The notes beneath the pieces were generated by a model. It worked only from the letters and a program-made list of their open reading frames with translations. It searched no databases and was not told the origin of the DNA. 64,000 nt of DNA from Candidatus Zhuqueibacterota bacterium (GTDB lineage Bacteria; Zhuqueibacterota; Zhuqueibacteria; Residuimicrobiales; Oceaniaggregativiventaceae), in contig WJMF01000075.1 in NCBI GenBank assembly GCA_014728085.1, positions 54,028-118,027 on the forward strand, read 5' to 3'. A program made the translations under genes and the position numbers. Shown here one piece after another: positions 42,572 to 51,039 of this stretch (its first letter is position 1; each line of letters starts with the position of its first letter).

Positions 42572-43621
42572 TTAGAAACCGATCGTTAAACAAAAGATAT
42601 TGTTGGCGTCAAAATATTCAGCGGTGCGATAAGCATAGTCGATACCCAGGGTAAAATTTCTGGCAATTGGATAATTGATACCGAATCCAAAAGCGGGGCC
42701 CCAGATATAGGACTTGCCGCCCAGCTCGTCATCCTGAGCATTCAGACCATGGCTATAACTTCCACGAACAAAGAATATTTCCTGAAAAGCCACTTCCAAT
42801 CCTGCCATCAGTTCGTCGTTGCCAAAATTCTGATTGCGGAAATTGCCGACGACAGTGGTGCGGAAATCATCGGTGGCATTCAGTTCATAGGCAAGACCAA
42901 TTTCGAACAATGAAGGCAACTCGGACTTTTGCGCCGGGATTTGCAAACGACGGGCCGGGGCCTGTGGTTCAGTACCCGGAATATTGACCAGTTTTTCCAG
43001 GTTCTGACCATCATACTGCAAGCCGGGACCAAAATTCTTCATGGTGACGCCGAGCAGAATGCCGGCAGAGGTGCGGTACTGAACACCAAGATCGAATGCT
43101 ACGCTGTTGGCCGTGGTGCTCAGAATCTTCTCATGAATCATTTTGATGTTTACACCGGCACTGATATTATCGGTCAGATCTCGGGCATACGTCGCACCGA
43201 GAGTAAAAAAGGTCGGTGAAAACGTCGCACCCGTACCTTCCGGTGATGCTTCCGTGGTCTCGATAATATCGCCGAAATTAAGTGATTTAAAGCTGAATCC
43301 AAAGGTTCCGATGCCGGTTTTTACACCCAAAGCAGCATAGGAAATACCGATATCAGCGATGTACTGCATCTGAGAAAACATAACCTCAGCGGCTTTATCG
43401 GTATTGCCGAGACCGGCAGGATTCCAATAGATTGCGTCTGTTCCGGTAACGGTGGCGATGTTTGCTCCACCAAGCGCCGTGGCGCGGGCACCGACCGGAA
43501 TCAAAAGCTCTTCAGCAGAAGCTGATCCTTTACGCTGATCTGAGGCAGCTTCGGCTTGAAACATTAACCCCATTATCAAAAGCAGGGTTAAACCGACCAG
43601 AGTAAAATATTTTATTCTCAT
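42572..43621 (-). CDS. PorV/PorQ-like outer-membrane protein
   Basis: ASAEELLIPVGARATALGGANIATVTGTDAIYWNPAGL; beta-barrel C-terminus. Confidence 0.88.
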   Translation of the reverse strand: MRIKYFTLVGLTLLLIMGLMFQAEAASDQRKGSASAEELLIPVGARATALGGANIATVTGTDAIYWNPAGLGNTDKAAEVMFSQMQYIADIGISYAALGVKTGIGTFGFSFKSLNFGDIIETTEASPEGTGATFSPTFFTLGATYARDLTDNISAGVNIKMIHEKILSTTANSVAFDLGVQYRTSAGILLGVTMKNFGPGLQYDGQNLEKLVNIPGTEPQAPARRLQIPAQKSELPSLFEIGLAYELNATDDFRTTVVGNFRNQNFGNDELMAGLEVAFQEIFFVRGSYSHGLNAQDDELGGKSYIWGPAFGFGINYPIARNFTLGIDYAYRTAEYFDANNIFCLTIGF

Positions 43622-43656
43622 ATATACCTTCTCCTGTATTTCATTTTTTTAATTTA

Positions 43657-46600
43657 CTACAGATGCAAGTATCTCGCTTCTCTATTGACTATGGCAAGCT
43701 TGAGAATCTTTTCGCCCACGCCCGGAATTTCGATATGCGCGATATACATACCACTACCAACCGGAATATTTTGATCGTTGTGCAAATTCCAGGTGGCAAT
43801 TGAGGTTTGATCGTCGTGCTCGATCGTGCGTATCAGTTGACCGGAAAGCGTGAATATACGAATGACACATCCATCTTCAGGTAAATTGATAAAGGATACA
43901 AATTGATCAAAGTTTGTTGTTTCAGCAGTATTGACGCCAAAATAGGGATTGGGGAAGACCTGTACCTGATTCAGGCGCTGCTGACCGATAGCATCCGACG
44001 TTTCCGCCGTCAGACCGGCTGTCGAGAAGGTAACATGATCACCCTGTTTTACCGGATGCAGGGTAAGAACGGTCATCGTCCAGTCACCGAGTTCAGTATA
44101 AGTGCCGCGGTTGGTGGGCCACATGGCAAAAACCACGTCGGCTGACGGACCCTCGTTGGTATCGTCGTAAAGGCCGGCACCATCATCATAATCGCTGTCC
44201 ATGATCCAGAGATACTCACGACCGCCCAGACCATCACCAACATCGGCCGCAATCGGATCCCAGTGCATGTCAACGGCATTGCTGCCCTCTGATTCGAGAA
44301 AACAAATGTTGACCTGACGGGGATTGTTGGGATCAGTAATGTCCTCGGCCCAGCCGGGAAATGTACCGATTCCCTGGAATCCATATTCGGGGCGAAGGTA
44401 TACATAGGCCTTGGACCATTGGCTCTCATCACTGGTAAAATGAATCTTGATATCGTTGTAATCATTGGGTCCCAGGGTGGATCCAAAGAAATTCTCACCC
44501 AGAAAACCGCCGCCAAAAAAGGTCTCACCGCCGGCATTGACACCGGTCAGGGTTCGTGTTCCCGTCCAGTCAAAACCACCGTAAGGAGCACCATAGGCGG
44601 CATAGGCACCGGCATGGGTATTAATGCCGTATTGCCCCGGTTCCGGTGCAAGGAGTGAAAAAGTCACACCGTCAAAAACCGGAAAATTGTCGCCTCCGGA
44701 AATGTTGTTCCATTTGGGAAAGAGGGTTTGACCGGTGGTGACATCCTTGACCGCAATCGCATTGGCATAGCCACTGTCCGCACCGGACTCGGCAAAGACA
44801 AAGTCGATGCGATAATCATGACCGGTGATGGCAGCAGGATCGACAACATAAGCCGAAGCGGTGATATCACCAGAACTGGCACCGTCGCCGGGAACAACGG
44901 TGACCGGCAGGTCGGTGTCGTGCTCGGTACCGTATTGGGTTTTGAGTTCCGGTTTGTGCGGTGTGGCCACAACCGGCTCGATGCTGTTTTCCAGAGCCTT
45001 GGGCGTACCATCCGGATTGACCGTATAGCCGGTGACGGCAAAATAATATTGCTTGCCGTTGACGAGAGGCACATTGCCACCAACCACATCTTTATCGATA
45101 TACATCGAATACTTGAGACCTGCATCGGTTCCGAACTGTACCGGTTTAACCACGATAGCATTGGCGTCGACGTCAAAAACTTCGTCATATACTTTGGTGA
45201 TAAAGTTTTCTTTGTCAAAGGTGGCGATGCGTGTCCACTGACCGGAGGCGTCACCGGAGCGTGAAGGTGCCTGATAAACATTATATCCTTCAAACGCATA
45301 GCCGGCTGCATCCTTGTGATCGCGGGCCGTTTCATCCCAGCTCAGGACGAGCTCCCCATCGCCTTCAAAAACCTCAACAACCGGAGCCGGTGGCGGGCTA
45401 CCCACGACAAAGTCGTTGTCATAGGCAAACTGGGCGGCGCGGTCATTGTATTTCATGATCGAAACCGAGTTTAAATAATTGTTCGACTGGCCGGCGACCA
45501 AACCGACAACAACTTCCATGGTCTCGCCCTTGGGCAGGGTAAAGGGACCGGAAGATTGCGCCATACGCATGTCTCCGGGAGGCGCTTCGTAAAAACCAAG
45601 CCAGCCTGTACCGGTAACCGGATCACCGCTGTTGACGAACTTGGAAGCTTGACCGGTCGTCGGATCGGTAAAAGTACTGCCGTCCCAGACAAAACCGCGA
45701 ACATAGTTATAGGCTTCATAACCACCTTCTGCTGATTCCAGGGTGGGATCGCTGTAGGTGCTGCTGGAGTTGATATATTTTACAAAAGAAGTCATCGGCA
45801 GAATCTTTTTGTCCGGTACCGGGCCGGAAGGCAGAAAGGCGGTGTCGCCGGGAGAATCCACCATCGGACCCTGGAAAAAGTCGCATCCCATAGCCGGTAC
45901 CTGTTCGCCATAGTGAGAGTCATAGGCAGTACCGTTGTAGACATATCCCATACTCAGATCGATATCACAGGCAACATAATCATCGCCGGCGTCACCGAGG
46001 TCGGGATCGAAAAAGATGGCAACATAAGAGCTGTCCAGGGTGGCTGGACCTTTGTTCTGAAACTCGAACTTGATGAAACAGCAATCGCCAAGCGGTCCGG
46101 CCTGGGCATAACCCCAAATGGTCTGATGCACTTCAAGGCCGATCGGTTGTGTCTGCCATACCGCCATGTGGTTGGCCGGATTGGCATCGTTGTAGACCGT
46201 ATAGAGCATCTGATCGCCGATCACCTCGGGCGGAGCACCCTGAGCGATAGCCGCCGCGTCCACGGTTTCACCTTTATCGAATTTGTAAACCTTGTATTCT
46301 TCTTTGGTCACATCATCCGGCGCACCGGAGGGTAAAATAATACCGCCCTGAAAATCGGTTGAATAGTCAGCTGCGGCAGCGCGAAGCTCGCGGGTATCCT
46401 CAGTCAAACCGAGCAACCACATGCCGGCGGTAAAAATGGCGTAATGCCCCGATCCCTTGGGATATTCCAGACCGGAATCTCCCGTTTGCGGATCAGTTGC
46501 AAAAAGACCGTTGTTGATAAAATAGCTGCTGATTCGATTGACATCGAACAAGGCAGCATGATTCTTTAGCGTACTCTTGTTGAGACTCTTCGTTCCCGGT

Positions 46601-46683
46601 GCTTCTTTGGCCGCCAGAGGCATCGCCGTCAAACCGATAACCAGAGCCAGGGCTAACAAGAGCGCGAAACTTTTCCTTATCAT
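43657..46683 (-). CDS. Large secreted protein with type IX C-terminal sorting domain
   Basis: Signal peptide MIRKSFALLLALALVIGLTAMPLAA (AAGGAG upstream); FPNPYFGVNTAE...IRIFTLSGQLIRTIEHD...SGMYIAHIEIPGVGEKILKLAIV. Confidence 0.85.
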   Translation of the reverse strand: MIRKSFALLLALALVIGLTAMPLAAKEAPGTKSLNKSTLKNHAALFDVNRISSYFINNGLFATDPQTGDSGLEYPKGSGHYAIFTAGMWLLGLTEDTRELRAAAADYSTDFQGGIILPSGAPDDVTKEEYKVYKFDKGETVDAAAIAQGAPPEVIGDQMLYTVYNDANPANHMAVWQTQPIGLEVHQTIWGYAQAGPLGDCCFIKFEFQNKGPATLDSSYVAIFFDPDLGDAGDDYVACDIDLSMGYVYNGTAYDSHYGEQVPAMGCDFFQGPMVDSPGDTAFLPSGPVPDKKILPMTSFVKYINSSSTYSDPTLESAEGGYEAYNYVRGFVWDGSTFTDPTTGQASKFVNSGDPVTGTGWLGFYEAPPGDMRMAQSSGPFTLPKGETMEVVVGLVAGQSNNYLNSVSIMKYNDRAAQFAYDNDFVVGSPPPAPVVEVFEGDGELVLSWDETARDHKDAAGYAFEGYNVYQAPSRSGDASGQWTRIATFDKENFITKVYDEVFDVDANAIVVKPVQFGTDAGLKYSMYIDKDVVGGNVPLVNGKQYYFAVTGYTVNPDGTPKALENSIEPVVATPHKPELKTQYGTEHDTDLPVTVVPGDGASSGDITASAYVVDPAAITGHDYRIDFVFAESGADSGYANAIAVKDVTTGQTLFPKWNNISGGDNFPVFDGVTFSLLAPEPGQYGINTHAGAYAAYGAPYGGFDWTGTRTLTGVNAGGETFFGGGFLGENFFGSTLGPNDYNDIKIHFTSDESQWSKAYVYLRPEYGFQGIGTFPGWAEDITDPNNPRQVNICFLESEGSNAVDMHWDPIAADVGDGLGGREYLWIMDSDYDDGAGLYDDTNEGPSADVVFAMWPTNRGTYTELGDWTMTVLTLHPVKQGDHVTFSTAGLTAETSDAIGQQRLNQVQVFPNPYFGVNTAETTNFDQFVSFINLPEDGCVIRIFTLSGQLIRTIEHDDQTSIATWNLHNDQNIPVGSGMYIAHIEIPGVGEKILKLAIVNREARYLHL

Positions 46684-46734
46684 ATCCTGTTTCTCCTTGT
46701 TATTATTTTCATACAAAACTCAACAATAAGAGAA

Positions 46735-49728
46735 TTACATCTCGACCTTGACACCGAGTCTGATTTGACGAGGTTCCTGCCAGCCAAAAGTACCGGAGTT
46801 GGTCAAAAACGCCTGATACCATCTTGCGTATTCCTCGGCTCCGCCTTCATAATCACGGGCGCGTTTTTTGCCATCTTCGCTCTCCAAATGTCCATCGGAC
46901 TCGGGAGTACCGGTTTGTGAGAATACATCGAGGATCGATTTGGTGTCAAACAGGTTGATAACCCAGAGATAGACATTCATATCAAAGGGACCAACGTCAA
47001 ATGATTTGTCCAGTTTTGCATCCAATTGATAGAACCAGGGCATACGGGAAGAGTTGATACCTTCGATCGGTTTGCCCTGCGTATAACCAAATACCTCACT
47101 ATAACTGCTGCCGCTCTGGATACGCGTATAGGGGTATCCGCTATGGAAGCTGAATCCCATGTTCAGACCCACTCTGGCGAGTGGTTTCATGCCGAAAAGT
47201 TCCGGACCGTCATTTTCATCGAGACGGATATCGGCAAAAACGGTTCCCTTGTGACGTACATCAAAGTCGAGAGGCTGGATAACAGTCGGAAACACCGGAT
47301 CTCCTTCAGCCCAGGCAATGTCAAAGTGGCTGTCGGATGAAGAGCCTGTTCCTTCCGCCCAGGAAAGCGTATAGTTGGCAGTGGCGGCGATTTTGTTCCA
47401 GCGACGCAGGGTAAAATCAAGCGTCAAGCCCTTGATGGTACCAAAGTCGGCATTGGAATCGAGATAGGGAGATGTGTACGACGTTCCGGCCTGCGGGATA
47501 ATCTTGCGAATCGCAACCAGATTATCGGTATTTTTATAGAACACGGTTGCGTTCAAAGCCGCATTGGGGCCGAACTGCTGTTTGAAACCGAATTCATAAG
47601 AGGTTGTTCTTTCCGGTTTCAGGTTCGGATTGGGATATTCTCTTGCATAACCACCGGAGAATAGAGAATTTGCCATGTAACCCCAGCTCTCGAACATATT
47701 GTCGAAACGGCTCAGCTGAACGAATTTGCCGTATTGTGCGTGAAAGACGGTCTGATCCGTGACCGGGAAAGAAAATCCCAATCGCGGACTGGCAAAGATG
47801 TCTGCATCCGCTTCTTCAAAGGTCTCCTCATCGAAAAATCCGGTGGGAGCGTCCTGAATATTGGTAACATCCTTGAACTTTTTGATGTTGCGGTCAAAAT
47901 AGTCCAAACGCACACCGGCGTTCACAGTCAGGTCGCGCAGCTCGATTTTGTCCTGCAGGTAAAAACCGGCCATAATCGGATGCGGCGGGCCGTCAAGTCC
48001 GTTAAAGTAGAGAAATTCATCTCCGACCCAAACGCTGTATTCTTTATCGCTGTTGATCTTGTTTCCATAGATATCATATCCATAGTTACGCAAAAAGGAA
48101 CGATAAGCAACATAATCGGTAATGGGCGAAGAACCATCCATCGATGCCTCTTGATTGGAAAAGGATTGCAGCATGCTGATGGTTGAAATCGTATAACGCC
48201 GCAATGTATGATAATTCACTTCAGCGCCAACTTTGAACTCGTGGCGTTTGCCCACCTGTTTGGTGAGATCAAACTTTAAGCCCATATAAGTTTCCTGGTG
48301 CTTGTTGAAGGTATTCACCGGATAATAGGGAGCGTTGAGAGAAACGCCGATGGGAAGCCGATAAGTCTTTGCCACACCGGTATCCGCAACAGCGCTGTTG
48401 TAAACCGGATCACCGATTTTGGCAATATCATCCCAGTACCAGGGATCGCCGTTTTTGCTGTCATAATAAGCGTAATTCAGATTTAACGTATAAAACATGG
48501 TCGGGTCAACGCTGTGGGTAAACTGGAGGTATCCGGACATGTTGTTGTATTTGTATTTGCGTGAACGGCTTTCAACCGAATACAGCCCGGCCGGATCGCC
48601 GTTGGAAGCCGCATTTCTTTCTGAAAAATGCAGTGTACCACCGACCTTGACTCTAAAGGGCTGTTTATCCCATACCACATTGACATTGACATTGTCGCCC
48701 AGACGGCCGCCACCAGGTAAACGACCAGGAGGAATGTCAGCGTAGAGTTGCATGGTGTCGGTATGGGTTCCGCTGGGATTCAGAGACCAATCCTTGATCA
48801 CCTGCATAGAATCCTGCTCCCAACCCTCAAAACGACTGGGATCGTTGGCTTCATAATAATGCTCATAAGCAGCAAAAAAGCGAACGTTTTTCAGGTTCGG
48901 CAGAAGAGGACCGCTGGCGGTGAGATAATAGTGGTTGTAGCCAAAACTGTACTGATCTTCAATACCCAGAATCGTATGGCCTTTATCATCGCTGTAGGTG
49001 GACCAAAATTCATCGGATACCGCTTCAAAAGAAAAATGGTATTCCGGGCCACCGGTTTTCAGTTCGGTATGGATCACACCGGAATTGGCAAAACCGTATT
49101 CCGCGGTAAACCCACCAGCCTGATAATCGATCATTTCAATAGCGCGATCGATGATGGAAATGTTGTTGCCGCCGTCCACGATCGATGTGGTGGCGATGCC
49201 GTCGATATAACGGGCAACCTCGTGGTCACGACCACCGCGGATGTGCAAACCGCCGCGATTGACCGCACCGGCCATAGCTGATACCACTTCAGTGACACCG
49301 CGAATAGGCAGGTTTTCCAGATCTTCAGCCCACATCGTCTTGGTATAGTTGGTAACATTTTTATCGACAAGAGGTTTCTCCGCGATAATGGTTACCGTTT
49401 CACCTTCGAGCGTAATGGGTGGAAGTTCAAAGTTGATTTCTGTCGTTCGATCCGAAATAACGATGTTATTCTGAATCGCAACGTTTCTATAGCCGACAAA
49501 GGTTGCCTTTACTGTGTATTTTCCGCTGGGAACATTGAGAATGATAAAATTACCATTCACATCCGTCGCGGCACCCATCTGGGTGTCGAGAATCATGACG
49601 TTTGCTCCCGGTAAAGGGTCCCCCGTCTCCGCATCAACAACCGTACCTCTTATTTTACCGGTGTTGCCGGCGTAAAGAGCTACAGTCAGAAATGCTAACA
49701 AAAAGATAAAAATGCCTCGTTTTAGCAT
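46735..49728 (-). CDS. TonB-dependent receptor with carboxypeptidase-like regulatory domain
   Basis: GKIRGTVVDAETGDPLPGANVMILDTQMGAATDVNGNFIILNVPSGKYTVKATFVGY; plug LENLPIRGVTEVVSAMAGAVNRGGLHIRGGRDHEVARYIDG. Start set at ATG 49728 (GGAGG). Confidence 0.92.
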   Translation of the reverse strand: MLKRGIFIFLLAFLTVALYAGNTGKIRGTVVDAETGDPLPGANVMILDTQMGAATDVNGNFIILNVPSGKYTVKATFVGYRNVAIQNNIVISDRTTEINFELPPITLEGETVTIIAEKPLVDKNVTNYTKTMWAEDLENLPIRGVTEVVSAMAGAVNRGGLHIRGGRDHEVARYIDGIATTSIVDGGNNISIIDRAIEMIDYQAGGFTAEYGFANSGVIHTELKTGGPEYHFSFEAVSDEFWSTYSDDKGHTILGIEDQYSFGYNHYYLTASGPLLPNLKNVRFFAAYEHYYEANDPSRFEGWEQDSMQVIKDWSLNPSGTHTDTMQLYADIPPGRLPGGGRLGDNVNVNVVWDKQPFRVKVGGTLHFSERNAASNGDPAGLYSVESRSRKYKYNNMSGYLQFTHSVDPTMFYTLNLNYAYYDSKNGDPWYWDDIAKIGDPVYNSAVADTGVAKTYRLPIGVSLNAPYYPVNTFNKHQETYMGLKFDLTKQVGKRHEFKVGAEVNYHTLRRYTISTISMLQSFSNQEASMDGSSPITDYVAYRSFLRNYGYDIYGNKINSDKEYSVWVGDEFLYFNGLDGPPHPIMAGFYLQDKIELRDLTVNAGVRLDYFDRNIKKFKDVTNIQDAPTGFFDEETFEEADADIFASPRLGFSFPVTDQTVFHAQYGKFVQLSRFDNMFESWGYMANSLFSGGYAREYPNPNLKPERTTSYEFGFKQQFGPNAALNATVFYKNTDNLVAIRKIIPQAGTSYTSPYLDSNADFGTIKGLTLDFTLRRWNKIAATANYTLSWAEGTGSSSDSHFDIAWAEGDPVFPTVIQPLDFDVRHKGTVFADIRLDENDGPELFGMKPLARVGLNMGFSFHSGYPYTRIQSGSSYSEVFGYTQGKPIEGINSSRMPWFYQLDAKLDKSFDVGPFDMNVYLWVINLFDTKSILDVFSQTGTPESDGHLESEDGKKRARDYEGGAEEYARWYQAFLTNSGTFGWQEPRQIRLGVKVEM

Positions 49729-49900
49729 CTTCGCCTCCATTTAATTGACCTTACTTTTTGCCATTTAGCTGTTAATGGTTTCCTGGTTACGTACTACCTC
49801 TTCTCCTTCTCCTCGACCCTCCTGTGTTAATGATTTTGCCTGTTTTATTGAAACAATTCAACCAAACTTGCGTATTCAATATACAAAGGCCCACCTCACC

Positions 49901-49938
49901 CTCTGATAGAGGTGGAACTCTCTGATAGAGGTGGAACT
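49901..49938. repeat. Perfect tandem duplication, 2 x 19 bp (CTCTGATAGAGGTGGAACT)
   Basis: 49901-49919 and 49920-49938 are identical. Confidence 0.97.
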
Positions 49939-49967
49939 TTTCTTTGAGATTTTCAAAGAACGCGTAA

Positions 49968-50022
49968 AGCTGCTATTCTCAGCCGGGTTCGCAGGCTCTG
50001 CTGAGAAAGCAGCTCTTTTTTT
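49968..50022 (+). terminator. Plus-strand intrinsic terminator
   Basis: 15-bp stem with one bulge followed by T7. Confidence 0.8.
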
Positions 50023-50024
50023 AC

Positions 50025-50045
50025 CCGCATCATCATGCGGTTTTT
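50025..50045 (+). terminator. Second tandem plus-strand terminator-like hairpin
   Basis: CCGCAT-CATC-ATGCGG-TTTTT. Confidence 0.55.
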
Positions 50046-50251
50046 GATCATTCTATCAACCCGGTCGCACCAAAAACCGCATTGTCGTGCAGTTGTTTTG
50101 TTGCGGCCGTTTTCATATTTTTATATCAGTAAAAAATCTCTCTTCCGCCAAAAAGTTGAAAATGTGACGACCATCAACCCATCTCGATGAAAAGATGTTA
50201 TCTTGTTGGTCACATACCTCATAATCAATGAATCGCCTTTCAGTACTAGCA

Positions 50252-50280: not shown

Positions 50281-50466
50281 GCATTTTTTCACAATTTTTC
50301 CCTGCAAAGAAATACCGGACCGGATTTCTGTACGCTAAAAGCGAAAATTAAAGTTACAATAATATTCAACAATGTCAATGCTTTTCTTGAATTTTAACCT
50401 ATTTTTTTTAAATAAAACAGTAATTCTGCATAAAAAATTTAAGTAAAATAAAAGGTTCTAAAAATA

Positions 50467-51039
50467 TTATAAATATTTTATGATTCCCTGCCACAGCTTT
50501 TCCTTTCCCGCTCCGGTTTTCGCAGAAAAAGAATAGACCGGACTTTGGGGCAATTGGTGATAAATATATTGCTGTTGTTTCTGTAACTGCTGTCTGGATA
50601 ACTTGTCGATTTTGGTAGCGACAACGATAAAGGGTTTGTTATAATAGCGCAACCACTCGATCATCTGCAGATCGGAATCCATTAATCCGTGACGACAGTC
50701 AATCAATACTACCACGACTTTTAAAAAAGAGGATTTTGAAAGATAACCTTCTATAAGTGATTTCCAGGATTGCATCATCGATGCGGGGGCTTTGCTGAAT
50801 CCATAACCGGGCAAATCGACGAGATAAAACGTATGATTGATAAGAAAAAAATTGATCAGGCGGGTTTTACCGGGCGTGCCGCTGGTAAGGGCCAAACGCT
50901 TGCGTCCGAGAAGTTTGTTTAAAAGGCTGGATTTGCCGACATTGGATCGGCCGACAAAAGCGATCTGGGGTAACTCTTTTTCGGGCAACTGATCAAGCGA
51001 TGCAACACTTTTGACAAATTCAGCATTGTTGATTTTCAT
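50467..51039 (-). CDS. engB: Ribosome-biogenesis GTPase YihA/YsxC/EngB
   Basis: IAFVGRSNVGKSSLLNKLLGRKRLALTSGTPGKTRLINFFLINHTFYLVDLPGYGFS; TKIDK. Confidence 0.95.
   Translation of the reverse strand: MKINNAEFVKSVASLDQLPEKELPQIAFVGRSNVGKSSLLNKLLGRKRLALTSGTPGKTRLINFFLINHTFYLVDLPGYGFSKAPASMMQSWKSLIEGYLSKSSFLKVVVVLIDCRHGLMDSDLQMIEWLRYYNKPFIVVATKIDKLSRQQLQKQQQYIYHQLPQSPVYSFSAKTGAGKEKLWQGIIKYL

Follow-up and report, generated by a model that had tools for sequence, protein, structure and literature searches.

A strongly folded hairpin cluster with two plus-strand terminators between engB and a TonB-dependent receptor gene in Candidatus Zhuqueibacterota

The stretch of DNA analysed here (the window, 64,000 nucleotides of contig WJMF01000075.1, assembly GCA_014728085.1, from a Candidatus Zhuqueibacterota bacterium) carries on its minus strand an engB/yihA-type GTPase gene (50467-51039) and a gene for a TonB-dependent receptor with a CarboxypepD_reg domain (46735-49740, likely start codon at 49728). 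Against the NCBI SusC/RagA model the receptor scores 76.2 of 368 bits, far below the cut-off. The product of the next gene (1019 aa) has a borderline T9SS sorting domain and neither a Pfam nor a SusD match, and a third gene follows on the same strand, the whole run being covered by 42600-49740 (-). The nearest named relative of the receptor (57% identical) is found in contig L069, filed as 'Phycisphaerae bacterium SM23_30'; the likeness of L069 to the lineage studied here may reflect a mislabelled bin.

The spacer between the two genes holds a cluster of hairpins, and the hairpins and T tails named in a preliminary description of this DNA were all found in their places when the sequence was re-read. 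H1 (49891-49934, plus strand) consists of a CCACCTC arm (49891-49897) and two 19-bp tandem repeats (ACYCTCTGATAGAGGTGGA). The direct repeats differ in one base (95% identity) and contain CTCTGATAGAGGTGG twice, at 49901-49915 and 49920-49934, and the arm is able to pair with either GAGGTGG copy; elsewhere the genome has no copy of the 15-base repeat core with fewer than two mismatches. H2 (49940-49960, plus strand) is the hairpin TTCTTTGA-GATTT-TCAAAGAA, that is, TTCTTTGAGATTTTCAAAGAA. H3 (49968-50022, plus strand) is a strong intrinsic terminator of -28.6 kcal/mol, in which a long stem AGCTGC...GCAGCT with an apical hairpin (49968-50014) is followed by C and T7 (50016-50022). H4 (50025-50045, plus strand), a second terminator-like hairpin, is formed by CCGCATCATCATGCGG (50025-50040) and a T5 tail (50041-50045). 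The preliminary description had overlooked a perfect 12-bp inverted repeat, ATGCGGTTTTTG / CAAAAACCGCAT (50035-50046 / 50071-50082, strand not assigned), which competes with H4, the two pairings being mutually exclusive.

This cluster with its two closing terminators is real and unusually strong. Both strands form strong structure: positions 49888-50022 of the plus strand fold to -52.3 kcal/mol (z -3.6), and a slightly longer stretch of the minus strand is no less structured (z -4.6). For background we used 456 kb of this genome, comprising 351 intergenic windows between genes called simply as longest open reading frames. The 140-base window at 49880 ranks second of the 351 by z (-4.6) and has the lowest energy among the 40 best-ranked. 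The intergenic DNA (26.9 kb) holds 8 terminators of -20 kcal/mol or lower with T6 or longer, as against none in 40 shuffles, and H3 with its T7 falls in this class. As a control, the scan for orphan terminators also recovered one that belongs to a lysine riboswitch recognised by Rfam in the same genome (L147:6466-6649, minus strand, ahead of peptidase-like and aspartokinase-like genes). Only one other hairpin in the 456 kb is equally strong and lacks a matching gene. A very strong hairpin (-31.4 kcal/mol) at G000:C113:58760-58830 lies directly behind a plus-strand gene and has a T7 tail on the opposite strand only. The 10-mer ATAGAGGTGG, common to the cluster and to the other orphan hairpin near C113:58860, was set aside as not enriched (11 occurrences vs 14 for a reversed-pattern control).

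Comparison with related genomes indicates where transcription of the receptor gene probably begins. Among 20 spacers from across the order, 9 have the exact pattern TTGAC-N18-TATATT close behind engB and reading in the receptor's direction; the opposite strand of the same spacers has none, and the shuffle expectation is 0.015. The conserved promoter, noted in the spacers of L111 and L114-L121, often has an A tract ahead of it. From 11 relatives, this genome being excluded, we built a promoter matrix, and in the same place as in the relatives it predicts a receptor-operon promoter, TTGACA-N17-TAATTT (50280-50252, minus strand), whose score of 12.9 is unmatched in 40 kb of window DNA. A weaker promoter-like site, TTGACA-N16-TAACTT, lies upstream (50351-50378, minus strand). 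The receptor mRNA should thus start near 50245 and have a 5' leader of about 517 nt (49729-50245, minus strand), as the conserved promoter and the matrix site together suggest; by the same reckoning, the leaders of other members measure about 110-650 nt. Given the promoter at 50280-50252, the hairpin cluster would lie inside this leader and antisense to it, so that the antisense position proposed in the preliminary description is made likely by promoters conserved in relatives. The conserved promoter behind engB, on the receptor strand, is new in this analysis.

With the T tails of H3 and H4 both lying on the plus strand, and no T7 run in the spacer when read on the minus strand, neither hairpin looks like an intrinsic terminator of the receptor mRNA. 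No plus-strand protein gene is present on either side of the cluster, which bears out the earlier remark that these strong terminators have no gene on their strand to end. An attenuator of a plus-strand gene was therefore rejected, there being no such gene downstream. Two short plus-strand reading frames, one of 31 codons from about 49829 with no convincing ribosome site and one of 7 codons, starting with TTG, ahead of H3, were rejected by eye as lacking gene-like features. The orientation of the T tails and the lack of neighbouring plus-strand genes together favour a non-coding plus-strand transcript. Of the features expected of an intrinsically terminated sRNA gene, the locus has a terminator of its own and no upstream protein gene on its strand; a promoter of its own was not found on the plus strand with the relatives' matrix. 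The hexamers TTCAAC (49857) and TATACA (49880), put forward earlier as a promoter for a start near 49891, are indeed present, but as a pair they are at chance level. They score -1.1 on the relatives' matrix, as do about 39 sites per kb, and a start site at 49891 is therefore unsupported. For promoters of the type that this matrix describes, no other site stands out on the plus strand from 48901 to 50060. A longer antisense RNA beginning inside the receptor gene would fit equally well.

Tentatively, and with somewhat less than even confidence, we take the cluster to be the 3' end of a non-coding plus-strand transcript that is antisense to the receptor leader, has two terminators in a row and lowers receptor expression. 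Such a transcript would be complementary to the receptor mRNA's long 5' leader and would end at two consecutive intrinsic terminators, H3 and then H4; pairing with the leader, or colliding transcription, might then lower receptor expression in the manner of the DonS RNAs. Against this reading stands a comparable hairpin with a 'wrong'-strand tail directly behind a gene at C113:58776. The candidate RNA shows no pairing preference for the receptor start region (144 of 200 shuffled sequences do no worse). The main rival, which we consider rather unlikely, places the function on the minus strand: the hairpins would be structures in the 517-nt receptor leader, stabilising it or controlling translation, for instance, and the plus-strand T runs would be incidental A tracts. 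The conserved promoter argues for the existence of such a leader, the minus strand folds equally well (z -4.6), and the best window of the leader reaches z -6.1. However, no long U tract lies behind any minus-strand stem, Rfam recognises no riboswitch there, and the orthologous leaders show no marked structure (best z -3.0 vs -6.1 here).

It is also possible, if quite improbable, that H3 and H4 merely halt stray antisense transcription from the receptor gene on the plus strand, with no discrete or regulatory RNA being made. This punctuation would agree with terminators that have neither a promoter nor a conserved body, and with the one other equally strong hairpin that lacks a matching gene in the 456 kb. 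Nevertheless, it leaves H1 and H2 unexplained, and both the tandem terminators and the elaborate apical stem exceed what punctuation would need.

Searches for relatives of the element covered Rfam, the phylum and mobile DNA. Rfam, searched at both thresholds, gave only a chance snoRNA match, with no family (riboswitches, 6S, sRNAs) above the curated threshold, in keeping with the earlier failure to recognise a family. BLAST against the genome itself and 98 relatives returned short chance matches only. In 82 phylum genomes, a covariance model built on the element matched the element itself and, beyond that, only two places at E ~0.5; run with filters off against 19 engB-downstream regions of other genomes and L069, it gave no persuasive match (best E 0.3). 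The element has no relative in the 81 other phylum genomes, and this single sequence offers neither conservation nor covariation among the phylum genomes searched. Much of the order retains engB followed by the receptor gene, and the compared spacers are without the hairpin cluster. Three of the 81 genomes are of the same family, all from other genera, with engB 51-57% identical and, in family member G001, a receptor 39% identical. As the closest genomes compared belong to other genera, absence from relatives counts only weakly against an RNA of recent origin. Restriction to this genome among those searched, together with the 19-bp tandem duplication at 95% identity, would also suit a lineage-specific DNA relic (for instance the remains of a small mobile element, or a sequence recently duplicated in tandem) with no RNA role, but this is the least probable explanation, given that the genome has no second copy (a 21-nt match on C143 inside a permease-like gene is due to chance), that phage and plasmid searches gave no match, and that the terminator architecture is intact. 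Viral contigs yielded 8 exact 17-mer matches, about the chance expectation for so large a collection. Identity with 6S RNA was rejected, a candidate being located elsewhere: a probable 6S RNA lies at G000:C17:634-813 (minus strand; L176), with 38.1 of 46.4 bits, below the Rfam cut-off (E 7e-6).

The antisense transcript that we favour has parallels among known systems. DonS and DonS-like RNAs are 78-128 nt long and encoded against susC homologues in Bacteroides (PMC7366714, citing Cao et al. 2016). The locus described here resembles them in having a right-sized RNA candidate that lies opposite the 5' region of a gene for a TonB-linked outer-membrane receptor, and if a plus-strand RNA is made, the geometry would fit their divergent layout, antisense to a susC-like 5' region, with the receptor leader predicted from the conserved promoters. 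It differs from them in that the receptor falls below the SusC/RagA cut-off, the next gene is not SusD-like, and the candidate, known from DNA alone, has no recognised promoter and matches no Rfam family. By the NCBI cut-off the receptor here does not belong to the SusC homologues of polysaccharide utilisation loci that DonS-type RNAs target, and we therefore do not file the candidate as a DonS member. Orphan terminators have served, for example in Sinorhizobium meliloti, to predict intergenic sRNA genes, with promoters and conservation as further evidence; experiments detected some of these (PMC2573895). What the cluster has in common with those predictions is an orphan terminator, with no gene running in its direction, within a long and structured spacer; unlike them, it has neither promoter nor conservation and is known from its sequence. 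Like riboswitch and attenuator leaders such as the lysine riboswitch at L147:6466-6649, it combines several hairpins with a terminator, and directly upstream there is no gene in its orientation, but here no plus-strand gene follows the terminators and no aptamer family matches.

Of the roughly 130-nt antisense sRNA first proposed, the terminators, the antisense position and the lack of an Rfam family have stood, whereas the 5' end, the promoter and conservation have not, and the sRNA is a modest, unproven candidate. It seems unlikely that a new, genus-restricted antisense RNA with tandem terminators controls the TonB-receptor/T9SS operon via the 517-nt leader; if so, DonS-like control would extend beyond the SusC receptors of Bacteroides. 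If the plus-strand RNA is made, an antisense-controlled receptor operon would be added in a little-studied lineage. The structure is real and well observed, and is of a known kind in a new and useful context, a receptor leader. Independent of whether the RNA exists, the comparison now gives a predicted promoter and long leader for the conserved pairing of engB and receptor. In several spacers a TTGAC...TCAA palindrome overlaps the conserved promoter and could serve as an operator. Behind this promoter the first gene of the operon is either that of the receptor or a DUF4397 lipoprotein-like gene, in which case the receptor comes second; the lipoprotein-like gene, absent here, stands between promoter and receptor in L108 (197-859, minus strand), L111 (782-1552, plus strand), L114, L115 and L121.
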